Under the pieces are notes generated by a model, which had not been told where the DNA came from, made no database searches, and saw only the letters and a list, made by a program, of their open reading frames with translations. Positions 52,557-59,308 of a stretch of DNA of 64,000 nt are shown here, one piece after another; positions within the stretch are counted from its first letter, which is position 1, and each line of letters opens with the position of its first letter. The DNA comes from an uncultured Lachnospiraceae bacterium (GTDB taxonomy: Bacteria > Bacillota > Clostridia > Lachnospirales > Lachnospiraceae): the NCBI GenBank assembly GCA_951801955.1, contig CATOOV010000001.1, forward strand, positions 1-64,000, given 5' to 3'. Both the position numbers and the translations under genes were made by a program.

Positions 52557-52773
52557 TGATGGAAAAATGGAACTGTAAAATGCTATGGTTCCATTTTTTT
52601 ACAAATGAAGATTGGAAATTGGAATAATTTTTATTATTCGATATAAAATGACATATTTTTTAAACAATATATTGTATATTGGAAACGCAACAAGGCGATT
52701 AAGAAAAATGGAAATTGGAAAAGTGTAATATTAATAAATCCTAATTCCAAAAATGTGTAGAGGAGGAAAAATT

Positions 52774-54495
52774 ATGGAGCAATATATATCAGAGATTATT
52801 GCAGAAGAATACAAAGAATGGAAACCAGGGCAGATGATTTTTTTGTCAGCCCATACAGGAGCGGGAAAAACGTTTTTTATTTTAAATGAATTATTGGAAT
52901 TTGCAGCTATAAGTGGTAAGAGGATTCTTTATCTCGTCAATAGAAGTATATTGAAGGAACAGATTGAAGAAAAAATTAATACAGAGATAAAATGCAGATT
53001 GAGAAGTGACAGGAATATAACGAGTGAAAATCTGGCAAATGTAATTAATGTAAAATTATATCAAACACTTGAAAACGAGTGTAAAACAAATTCCGATTTT
53101 GGGTCAATAAGGCAAGAAAAATATGATTTTATTATTGCGGATGAATGCCACTATTTTTTGGAAGATTCTACATTTAATACATGTACGCAATTATCTTATG
53201 ACTGGATCATGAGTTGGAAGGAAAATACAACTTTAATTTTTATTTCTGCAACTATTGATAGGATGAAAGATTATATTTTACAAGACAATAATATACATGA
53301 AGCAACAGAGGAAGAAAAAAACAGAAGTGGCGCATATGCTATGCGTGGGGATTTGGATATAAGAGATGTTGTTAAAAGTTATCAGACGGAAGCGGACTAT
53401 TCTTATGTAAAAGTCTCTCTATTGAAAAAAGTGGATGAGATATCAGAGCTTGTGGAAAAGGATAAGGCAAAATGGCTTATATTTGTGGACAGCATTGAAA
53501 ATGGAAAGAAGATAGAAAAAGCATTGCGGGAAAAAGAGATAGATTCAGCTTTTATTACGGCAGAATCTAAGAAAGATAGAGAATTATCGGGAACATTACA
53601 GATAATCAGTATAAGAGAGAAATATGACAAAAAAGTTTTGATTGCAACTAGTGTGATGGATAATGGTATATCAATTAAAGATTTAGACTTGAGAAAGTTA
53701 ATTATTATGGCTATGACACGAGAGCAGTTCATACAAATGCTGGGACGGAAAAGAGTGACATCAGATATGGAAAAACTGGAGGTCTATATTCTGTTGAGGG
53801 AGAAAGAATGTTTCCGTAAATGTCTTGTAGAATGCGAAAAACGGCAAAGGTTTATCAGTGAAGCAGAGAAATATAATTTTCAAATGGATATCAGCGTGGT
53901 ATTAGAGCAAATTTTGGAATCAAATGTATTTTTACAATGTGTAAAAAACATTTGCTATGTAGATCAAAGAAAGGTGGTTTTTAGTAAACTTGCAATTGCG
54001 CAATATGATTACCTATATAGATATTATAAAGGCATGGTTGAAAGATTTGAAAAAGAAGGAGGAACAGCTTTTCTTAGAGAGCAGTTGGAGTGGTTGGGAC
54101 GTAAGGAAGCAGAACAGGAAATTAAAGAATTGACAAAAACTTTGTTTGATCAAATAAGCAAGATTATTGAGGAATATAAAAATCGAGAGTTGAATGCAGA
54201 AGAAAATAAAGAGATGCGCGAAAGAATCAAAAGCTATATTTCTCAGGTGATTGGATGTTGTGCAGATCATGAAGGTTATCCTGACGAAGAAATAAAAAGT
54301 ATAATGAAAGAATTGGGTAAGCCAAGTAATGAAAGAACTCTTTCAAATAAGAACTTTAATAAAATTATGGAAATATTAAATTTGAATTATCAGATGACAA
54401 AACCAAACAGAAGTTCATTTTTGATTTCAGATAAAAATATAAAGGAGGAAATCGACAAGGATATAAAAATTGATAAAAAATCATTAGAAGAATAG
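52774..54495 (+). CDS. SF2 DEAD/DEAH-like helicase
   Basis: Walker A LSAHTGAGKTFFIL, DECH box IIADECHYFL, motif III SATI, ATSVMDNGISIKDLDL, QMLGRKR. Confidence 0.85.
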   Translation: MEQYISEIIAEEYKEWKPGQMIFLSAHTGAGKTFFILNELLEFAAISGKRILYLVNRSILKEQIEEKINTEIKCRLRSDRNITSENLANVINVKLYQTLENECKTNSDFGSIRQEKYDFIIADECHYFLEDSTFNTCTQLSYDWIMSWKENTTLIFISATIDRMKDYILQDNNIHEATEEEKNRSGAYAMRGDLDIRDVVKSYQTEADYSYVKVSLLKKVDEISELVEKDKAKWLIFVDSIENGKKIEKALREKEIDSAFITAESKKDRELSGTLQIISIREKYDKKVLIATSVMDNGISIKDLDLRKLIIMAMTREQFIQMLGRKRVTSDMEKLEVYILLREKECFRKCLVECEKRQRFISEAEKYNFQMDISVVLEQILESNVFLQCVKNICYVDQRKVVFSKLAIAQYDYLYRYYKGMVERFEKEGGTAFLREQLEWLGRKEAEQEIKELTKTLFDQISKIIEEYKNRELNAEENKEMRERIKSYISQVIGCCADHEGYPDEEIKSIMKELGKPSNERTLSNKNFNKIMEILNLNYQMTKPNRSSFLISDKNIKEEIDKDIKIDKKSLEE

Positions 54496-54926: not shown

Positions 54927-55034
54927 GATTGTGATAAAATGGATATTTGATTAATAAGCGGATATGTTAAAGATTTTTTAAAATTGTATATCGGATAGAG
55001 ATACTCCCGCCTTTAGGTGGTGAGTTACTTGCTA

Positions 55035-55191
55035 GTATAATCCACACTAATTATCGATACCTTTCGCGCAGGATAAATTTTCAGTCTGCAAGACGGAGGA
55101 ATGAGGCGTAGCGGTGGCTACATCGATTGACGACAACGCAGCAGATGGAAATTTAAACCAGTGAAAAGTACGGTTAATTAGTGTGGGTTGT
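55035..55191. mobile_element. MITE-like element, 157 bp, flanked by TA
   Basis: TIR gtataatccacactaatta / taattagtgtgggttgtac (17/19); TA on both sides. Confidence 0.65.
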
Positions 55192-55283
55192 ACTAGTATC
55201 ATTGGCAAGAATCCATCTCCCATCTGATATAAGCCTCCGGCGGATGCTTGATGTACGGTGGACATATATCTGGCAGAAAATGT

Positions 55284-55340
55284 GACGATGCAGCCATTTT
55301 GAAGAAATTGCAGGATAAGGCAGGGCTGTCCCCAAAGTAG
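55284..55340 (+). pseudogene. fragment of Rpn C-terminal module
   Basis: Frame reads DDAAILKKLQDKAGLSPK*, cf. DDATILKKLQDKVGLSVE at 57.5, 58.7 and 59.1 kb. Confidence 0.75.
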
Positions 55341-55787: not shown

Positions 55788-56258
55788 TCACTTATACAGC
55801 AAAGTTATTGTCATATCAGGATATTGCTCAGATAACAGATTTTGTATTTGTTTTAGGTAATTATCCATAATTTTTTCTGAGAGAATTGGAGTGTTTGGAT
55901 GATAACTGAAAGCATTTACACCAAAATGCAGATGCGGTTCTGCCCCTTCCAAATCTAATGCAAACAAAACTTGATAGTCTGAGGAAAACAGTTTAGCAGC
56001 TTGTACGCCAATTCCCAGCAGATAGGTATGATCCCATGATTTTTGGAAAGTAATGATAAAGTGCCATATTTTTCTAAAACCCGAATGATTAGAAAGGCTT
56101 TCACTTATTTCAAATTGGTCAATGATAGATAATTCTGGAGTGCATCGAAATCCATAACCGCCCAAGTAAGCTTTTTGGGCAATATATCCCAATACACAAT
56201 TATAGGCTTCACTATTATTATAATTTCCTTCCATAACAATAATTTGGATATCAGACAT
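55788..56258 (-). CDS. short MobA-like relaxase domain protein
   Basis: HFIITFQKSWDHTYLLGIGVQAAKLFSSDYQVLFALDLEGAEPHLHFGVNAFSYHP resembles relaxase core motif with HxH. Confidence 0.65.
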   Translation of the reverse strand: MSDIQIIVMEGNYNNSEAYNCVLGYIAQKAYLGGYGFRCTPELSIIDQFEISESLSNHSGFRKIWHFIITFQKSWDHTYLLGIGVQAAKLFSSDYQVLFALDLEGAEPHLHFGVNAFSYHPNTPILSEKIMDNYLKQIQNLLSEQYPDMTITLLYK

Positions 56259-56511
56259 ATTTTCTCATTTCCTTTCCGATTATTTGTTTTGCTTTGTTGC
56301 TTAAACTAGGATTAAGCAACAGAGAATTGAAAAGACCATTTTCAATTAGAGAGTTTTTTATCTGAAGTTCATGTGAATTTTGTCGGGAATCTTTTTTTAC
56401 AAGACTGAAAATATATTCAGATCTATTCATACCATTCTCTTTTGCCTGTTGATCTAACAATATTATTTCTTCTGGTGTCGCTCTGAGGTCTATGCGCTTT
56501 GATTTTTTCAT
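56251..56511 (-). CDS. MobC-like/ribbon-helix-helix mobilization accessory protein
   Basis: KSKRIDLRATPEEIILLDQQAKENGMNRSEYIFSLV; overlaps relaxase-like gene start. Confidence 0.65.
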   Translation of the reverse strand: MKKSKRIDLRATPEEIILLDQQAKENGMNRSEYIFSLVKKDSRQNSHELQIKNSLIENGLFNSLLLNPSLSNKAKQIIGKEMRKYV

Positions 56512-57042: not shown

Positions 57043-57217
57043 GTAATAGTTCAGCCATCATCAGTATGATAGACGATTCATGCGAGCATGAATGAGGATA
57101 GCATACTGTTAATGAGCGGAGCGCCCTTTAAGCCTCGGACAGAAGCTGCTTTAGCAAAAGATAGCCTGCTTTACAGGCGGTCTGTGGCTTGTTTAAAGGG
57201 GGCGCCTGAACTGTTAC
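57043..57217. mobile_element. IS66-type-end MITE, 175 bp, related to 24952-25125
   Basis: TIR gtaatagttcag/ctgaactgttac (11/12), perfect 8-bp direct repeat attttaat at 57035-57042 and 57218-57225; shared gacagaagc...gtctgtggctt core. Confidence 0.85.
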
Positions 57218-57360
57218 ATTTTAATGATGATGTCCATTTTCTATTGCCAGGATTTGATTTTACCAATATAATAAGAATACAAATGGCAATAAAGATAAAG
57301 AAAGGGCGCAAGAAGTTCAGTGAACCTCTGTAATGCGCGAACCGAAACGGAGTGAAGAAA

Positions 57361-57609
57361 GTGAATATCATGGGTGGCACAGTGATTGAGACAGAATCCG
57401 AGAAATTAATAAAAAAAGGAATGCAACAGGGGATGCAGCAGGGAATACAACAAGGAATCTATCAAGGCAAGGCACAGATTATCATTGAGATGGGTCAGGA
57501 AGAGGGAATGGATGACGCAACCATCTTGAAAAAATTGCAGGATAAGGTGGGTCTGTCTGTGGAACAAGCAACGGCTTATCTGGAGAAGTATGGAAAGCAC
57601 CTTGTGTAA
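57361..57609 (+). CDS. stand-alone Rpn C-terminal module protein, copy 1
   Basis: VNIMGGTVIETESEKLIKKGMQQGMQQGIQQGIYQGKAQIIIEMGQEEGMDDATILKKLQDKVGLSVEQATAYLEKYGKHLV; ggag 8 nt before GTG. Confidence 0.7.
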   Translation: MNIMGGTVIETESEKLIKKGMQQGMQQGIQQGIYQGKAQIIIEMGQEEGMDDATILKKLQDKVGLSVEQATAYLEKYGKHLV

Positions 57610-57849
57610 AGATGCTGTTACATATTTCTTTCGTCATCTATATCGTCATTATATCTTTCCTAAGAGATATAGATGAAAAATGGGAAAACAGATTTTGTGT
57701 AGAGTTTTAAAAATAAATTTCCATTGAAGAATATTATTTTAATGATGCCAACATCCATTTTCTATTGCCAGGATTTGATTTTACCAATATAATGAAAGTA
57801 GGACATTTCACTTCACAGATGAAGAAAATATTTTCAGAAGGGAGAAAGT

Positions 57850-58812
57850 ATGCAAAAGAAGACACCAGATTACGACAATGTGTTTAAGACTATGAAAAGC
57901 AAACACAAAAGATTGTTTATCTCTGTCATTAATGATATTTTTGGAAAATGTTATCCAATGGATGCAGAGGTTGAGGCTTTGCCATCAGAAGGGTATTTGA
58001 CTGAAAGTGAAACTGCAGATGGAAGCAGGGAAATCGAAGAGCAGATTTCAGATTTTCTAATGAAAATTGGCAATGAAGTGTACTTGTTAGAATGCCAAAC
58101 TTATGATGATGGCTCTATGGCAATCAGGATTGCTGAATATGCTTTCATAGTTGCCAGGCAGTTTGCAAGATGGGATATTGGTCATGCAGTTATCCCAATG
58201 CCAAGATTTTCTGTAATTTATGTTAAAAAGACAGCTAAAACGCCCAAAAGCACCACAATTACCTTTACATTTCCAGATGGACAAAGTGTGGATTATAGGT
58301 CTGGGAATGTAATTTTAGAGGAGATTACAAAAGAATATATTATGGAAAAGAGGCTGTTCCCTTATATCCCTTTTTATATTGCAAGATATGAGAAAAAGAT
58401 AGCATATGGAGATAGTATAGGAGAGGCTGAAAAGGATTTGGCGTATTTTAGGGATGAGATGCTCCGTCTGCACAGGGAAGGGGAGCTTTTGGATGATGAA
58501 ATTGTAGACTTGATGGGATTTGTGAATACTATTATTACACATATTACAAATGGTAATAAAAATGAAGAAAGGCTGGTGAATATTATGGGTGGCACAGTAA
58601 TTGAGACAGAATCCGAGAAATTAATAAAAAAAGGAATGCAGCAGGGAATACAACAAGGAATCTATCAAGGCAAGGCACAGATCATCATTGAGATAGGTCA
58701 GGAAGAGGGGATGGATGACGCAACCGTCTTGAAAAGATTGCAGGATAAGGTGGGTCTGTCTGTGGAACAAGCAACGGCTTATCTAGAGAAATATGGAAAG
58801 CAGCTTGTGTAA
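57850..58812 (+). CDS. Rpn-family (PD-(D/E)XK nuclease/transposase-like) protein, full length
   Basis: PDYDNVFKTMKSKHKRLFISVINDIFG...VEALPSEGYL...EEQISDFLMKIGNEVYLLECQTYDDGSMAIRIAEYAF; same C-terminal module. Confidence 0.88.
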   Translation: MQKKTPDYDNVFKTMKSKHKRLFISVINDIFGKCYPMDAEVEALPSEGYLTESETADGSREIEEQISDFLMKIGNEVYLLECQTYDDGSMAIRIAEYAFIVARQFARWDIGHAVIPMPRFSVIYVKKTAKTPKSTTITFTFPDGQSVDYRSGNVILEEITKEYIMEKRLFPYIPFYIARYEKKIAYGDSIGEAEKDLAYFRDEMLRLHREGELLDDEIVDLMGFVNTIITHITNGNKNEERLVNIMGGTVIETESEKLIKKGMQQGIQQGIYQGKAQIIIEIGQEEGMDDATVLKRLQDKVGLSVEQATAYLEKYGKQLV

Positions 58813-58939
58813 AGTTGCTGTTACATATTTCTTTCGTCATTTATAATTACACATATTACAAATGGCAATAAAAATGAAGAAAGGGCGCAAGAGGTTCAGT
58901 GAACCTCTGTAATGCGCGGACCGAAACGGAGTGTAGAAG

Positions 58940-59188
58940 GTGAACATTATGGGTGGCACAGTGATTGAAACAGAATCCGAGAAATTAATAAAAAAAGGAA
59001 TGCAACAGGGGATGCAGCAGGGAATACAACAAGGAATCTATCAAGGCAAGGCACAGATCATCATTGAGATGGGTCAGGAAGAGGGAATGGATGACGCAAC
59101 CATCTTGAAAAGATTGCAGGATAAGGTGGGTCTGTCTGTGGAACAAGCAACGGCTTATCTGGAGAAGTATGGAAAGCAGCTTGTGTAA
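58940..59188 (+). CDS. stand-alone Rpn C-terminal module protein, copy 2
   Basis: VNIMGGTVIETESEKLIKKGMQQGMQQGIQQGIYQGKAQ...; in-frame TAG just upstream so cannot be a fusion; ggag 8 nt before GTG. Confidence 0.75.
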   Translation: MNIMGGTVIETESEKLIKKGMQQGMQQGIQQGIYQGKAQIIIEMGQEEGMDDATILKRLQDKVGLSVEQATAYLEKYGKQLV

Positions 59189-59308
59189 AGCGGCTATTAC
59201 AAATACCTTTTCCAAGAGATATAGATGAGAAGTGGAAAAGTAAATTTTGTTTAGGTTTTTGAATATAAGTTTCCATATTAAATTAAAGTGTATATAGGTT
59301 TAAGACAG

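Follow-up and report, generated by a model that had tools for sequence, protein, structure and literature searches.

The window, that is, the whole stretch of 64,000 nucleotides analyzed, contains three tandem direct copies of a sequence of approximately 300 nt, which start at positions 57278, 58481, and 58857. The first and the third copy are 96% identical. The middle copy (unit 2) forms the end of a 320-amino acid gene with an ATG start (57850–58812, + strand) encoding a putative nuclease of the Rpn family (RpnL), and the outer copies (units 1 and 3) contain short open reading frames with intact frames, referred to as solo RpnS 1 and solo RpnS 2. Solo 1 (57361–57609, + strand) starts with the GTG at 57361 or, alternatively, with the GTG at 57352 or the ATG at 57370. 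Solo 2 (58940–59188, + strand, 82 amino acids) starts with the GTG at 58940 or the ATG at 58949. The two differ at 4 nt over 79 codons (two changes synonymous, two not), and the tail of unit 2 deviates by 8 nt from unit 3 and by 10 nt from unit 1. This tandem arrangement is real and well above chance. The sequence-only reading of the region had described an Rpn nuclease between two nearly identical solo C-terminal modules, three units with common sequence, and a GGAG-8nt-GTG start for each solo, all of which was confirmed, the start motif belonging to the GTG codons at 57361 and 58940. The internal start within the full gene, the hairpin nature of the solo start regions, the promoter copy in front of unit 1, and an additional MQQG repeat in the solos had been overlooked. 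Likewise overlooked was a decayed fragment of another rpn tail at 55279–55330 (+ strand), which shares 81% of its sequence with the solo (E 1.7e-5).

The full protein matched TIGR01784, a model of the YhgA-like Rpn family (COG5464), with an E-value of 5.4e-6, although its score of 26.4 bits is below the curated cut-off of 52.1. PF04754 did not match the window protein, and 11 out of 18 aligned relatives matched it weakly (best E 7e-4). In these 18 relatives, D68 and the E81-C pair are invariant and Q83 is nearly so; the conserved D68 and E81-C-Q83 would fit the acidic residues of a PD-(D/E)XK enzyme. An AlphaFold2 model of the full protein, computed from six sequences, was poor (pLDDT 42) and was not used, which leaves the nuclease fold unconfirmed. 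A profile search against PDB sequences returned nothing relevant. The C-terminal tail carries the hypervariable four-residue repeats in its first helix that are known from RpnS, and their number ranges from almost none to many across the tails of the relatives.

Within the full gene, a putative RpnS of its own is predicted to be translated from an internal start (58576–58812, + strand, GTG 58576 or ATG 58585), with a first helix of three repeats. This start is preceded by the Shine–Dalgarno sequence AAGAAAGG, and both site and start are kept in relatives. The predicted ribosome pairing of −16.2 kcal/mol compares with a 1% background level of −12.5 kcal/mol. The arrangement resembles that of RpnAL/RpnAS of Escherichia coli, which likewise consists of a nuclease and an internally started, three-helix C-terminal antitoxin with hypervariable four-residue repeats. 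In contrast to the window, no stand-alone copy has been described for RpnAL/RpnAS, and the sequences are distant, the window protein falling below PF04754.

The two solos correspond to stand-alone, ypaA-like rpnS genes in that they are intact, separate frames adjoining an rpn gene. In the predicted model of the solo (mean pLDDT 74.5), there are three helices, the first of which is long and holds the repeats; this agrees with the published description of RpnAS. A fold search of this model against the PDB gave a best match of only E 1.3, and matches of the solos to FliH and PAAR-like proteins were below the cut-offs and probably reflect helix noise. Shine–Dalgarno pairing was predicted at about −10 kcal/mol for the solos, near the 5% background level and thus moderate. 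The view of the solos as RpnS-like modules that are plausibly translated separately is supported. Taken together, the sub-threshold family match, the acidic residues, the repeat tail, the internal start, and the three-helix solo support the assignment of the locus to the Rpn kind, as first proposed.

The start region of each solo is supplied by a 55-nt hairpin insert (57306–57360 in unit 1 and 58885–58939 in unit 3, both + strand), which directly precedes the start codon, stands in place of one codon of the full gene, and provides the GGAG-8nt-GTG motif. The hairpin has the sequence GCGCAAGAGGTTCAGTGAACCTCTGTAATGCGC with the tail CGGACCGAAACGGAGTG; its stems vary between copies, yet stay self-complementary. 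In this genome, the tail motif occurs in 20 copies, mostly away from rpn; within the genus, 15 of 29 genomes contain it, while reversed-pattern controls gave zero hits. A role as rpn-specific regulatory RNA was therefore rejected, and no RNA family in Rfam matched the hairpin. A hairpin of the same kind is found at the same nuclease/tail junction in front of an intact solo in G005 and in a decayed gene in G018, and in G344, which belongs to another genus, it precedes a divergent RpnS-like tail. Because the closest sequence to the G005 tail is a full gene of another genome (L076), with 25 nt differences against 45–46 for the solos of the window, the element would either have inserted there repeatedly or have been moved by recombination. 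In two further genomes (G057 and G193; L082 and L080, around 1501–1530), a member of the hairpin family appears as an in-frame insertion in a different open reading frame, to which it adds about 20 residues as judged by eye; this recalls coding palindromic elements.

Several other features were observed in the vicinity. Short relaxase-like (PF03432) and NikA-like (PF21983) open reading frames on the − strand (55788–56258 and 56251–56511) beside the array are probably the remnant of a mobilizable element. Some 3 kb upstream of the array, there is a superfamily 2 helicase-like open reading frame (52753–54495; ResIII/DEAD, with weak similarity to Cas3/BrxH). Another dispersed repeat, bounded by long inverted ends (54980–55215), has 17 matches in the genome including itself. 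The region upstream of unit 1 (57100–57230), present as a single copy in the genome, forms a stable predicted fold (−43 kcal/mol, z −2.1). The solo had no match in viral contigs and phage records, and the full Rpn had none in plasmid records, so that carriage of the module by phages or plasmids was rejected.

The full rpn gene is preceded by a putative promoter, TTGCCA-N17-TATAAT (57765–57793, + strand), a copy of which lies in front of unit 1 (57244–57272, + strand). Since promoter-like sites are no more frequent in the region than in shuffled sequences, the prediction is based not on their count but on conservation: TTGnCA-N17-TATAAT or a close form is located approximately 82–87 nt upstream of most of the rpn starts examined in the subfamily. 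For unit 3, only a weak promoter-like site was found (58820–58847), and its expression may rely on read-through out of the full gene. On another uncultured Lachnospiraceae contig (L072), an rpn promoter is joined to a solo tail as well, with a different breakpoint and without the hairpin; this solo is independent of those in the window. That the nuclease was lost in two separate deletions, both of which spared promoter and tail, is an argument, though not proof, for the retention of expressed solos.

Five solo frames are intact (units 1 and 3, G005, L072, and G344). Their dN/dS values (0.10 for unit 3 versus the G005 solo, 0.25 for the G005 solo versus the nearest full gene, and 0.09 for the L072 solo versus L070) make the frames look conserved at about 0.1–0.25, part of which signal may predate the separation of solo and nuclease; the comparison of units 1 and 3, with four differences only, has no power in this respect. 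Other tails are frameshifted, truncated, or interrupted by stop codons (G019 with L014, G018 with L045/L116, G014 with L033, and the fragment at 55279 in the window), which points to a decaying rpn array in which some tails have been retained.

Both solos carry 12 nt, or four amino acids (MQQG), that the full gene lacks. Their first helix has four repeats and hence exactly one more than the resident tail. In E. coli, repeat number sets the specificity of RpnC: only an RpnS with an equal number of repeats blocked RpnC, and one extra repeat abolished neutralization (Zhong et al., 2023, PMC10327210, Fig. 4D). The solos do not share the repeat number of the resident RpnL as a cognate antitoxin would, and with one MQQG repeat too many they are probably not simply its antitoxins, with the reservation that the repeat-matching rule was established for E. 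coli RpnC only and may not hold in the window system. Some cross-binding between the solos and the resident RpnL is plausible, because apart from the repeat the solos hardly differ from the resident tail. A search of this assembly, which is only 88.8% complete, revealed no RpnL with four repeats.

Stand-alone RpnS genes are known from E. coli, where rpnE has ypaA, and rpnC a second rpnCS, on its downstream side; the YpaA protein has been shown to be made, and rpn arrays have been described as tandem duplications (Zhong et al., 2023, PMC10327210). The architecture of the window, which had been proposed to be new, is therefore not new in kind. In E. coli K-12 MG1655 (NC_000913.3, 2356904–2358001), the full rpnE is also followed closely by a solo tail with its own start, and YpaA, too, exceeds the resident RpnE tail by one four-residue repeat (+4 amino acids). 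Unlike the window, this locus has a single solo, located downstream only, lacks a hairpin insert, and has a shorter gap (12 bp against 127 bp); moreover, K-12 RpnE is annotated as inactive. In the rpnC/rpnCS loci of some strains, an RpnS of independent origin stands alone beside rpn as in the window, but rpnCS has been reported downstream only (PMC10327210), whereas one of the window solos lies upstream with its own rpn-type promoter.

Among the E. coli rpnE/solo pairs sampled, 20 out of 20 (about 12 distinct pairings) are unequal in repeat length, the differences being multiples of four residues. Shuffled pairing of the 10 tabulated genotypes yielded a mean of only 0.6 matches, with a probability of 0.45 for none at all. 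As the mismatch thus does not go beyond random pairing, an avoidance of equal repeat numbers was rejected; the data show that the repeat numbers of rpnE and its solo are uncoupled. E. coli PK8277 (L127) has a single rpnE with a solo-type end (FDRDQVLAATQLSEADLAANNH), which suggests that rpnE exchanged its tail with the solo by crossing over.

The explanation we favor, to which we give an even chance, is that the solos are RpnS paralogues that survive in a decaying rpn array and are mismatched to the resident toxin. The locus would then be a small, partly decayed array with one intact RpnL and its internally started RpnS antitoxin, accompanied by two stand-alone RpnS paralogues that remained after tandem duplication, once their nuclease domain had been lost. 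A deletion would have joined solo 1 to the native rpn promoter, and the dispersed hairpin element would have inserted at the nuclease/tail junction, so that both solos now start behind it. Most likely, they still make small three-helix RpnS proteins. Because their first helix is one four-residue repeat longer, these proteins should not silence the resident RpnL; judged by the RpnC data, their expected partners are copies of themselves or an RpnL with four repeats, for example an incoming or a former variant. The resident RpnL, by the same published data, would be controlled by its own internal RpnS.

The sequence-only reading had interpreted the solos as candidate decoy antitoxins. If expressed as dedicated or decoy antitoxins, they would shift the RpnS:RpnL ratio upward and hold the resident nuclease inactive until an infection occurs. 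The intact frames, the native rpn promoter in front of solo 1, and the near identity to the resident tail are in line with this proposal, as is the proven antitoxin activity of RpnS in E. coli, where a stand-alone form is made (PMC10327210). However, the additional repeat in both solos, of the kind that abolished RpnC neutralization, and the equal repeat number in none of the 20 E. coli pairs weaken it, and we consider it unlikely. That the solos are functionless debris, truncated rpn duplicates kept by chance, appears rather improbable as well. Rpn genes of the subfamily are indeed often broken in relatives, as the decayed tails listed above illustrate, and the hairpin, being a dispersed repeat found elsewhere, is no rpn regulatory feature; yet the five intact frames with low dN/dS and the two independent junctions of promoter and tail speak for retention. 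The least probable reading is a reservoir from which the solos donate their tail by recombination and thereby change the repeat number and the specificity of RpnL and its internal RpnS in one step: it is favored by the crossover-like rpnE of PK8277, by the common occurrence, in spread E. coli samples, of one-place rpnE records about 941 bp long, and by the roughly 90% identity of units 2 and 3 over 240 nt in direct orientation, but no swapped allele was seen in this species (one genome), and tandem repeats recombine anyway, so that swapping could occur without being selected for.

The results extend the stand-alone RpnS, known from E. coli, to a distant bacterium, probably a gut-dwelling member of the Lachnospiraceae, in which it flanks the gene on either side and, in one case, lies behind a copied promoter. 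They also leave a general puzzle, as neither in the 20 E. coli pairs nor in the window does the solo show the repeat number published as needed to silence its neighbor. With a slim chance of being correct, the solo RpnS might not be the antitoxin of the neighboring gene at all but a store of repeat-number variants that replace the tail of the full gene by recombination and so reset the specificity of RpnL and its internal RpnS together, while the expressed solo would immunize the cell against foreign RpnL variants from other strains or elements. The mismatch between solo and neighbor offers a direct way to test what solo RpnS genes do.
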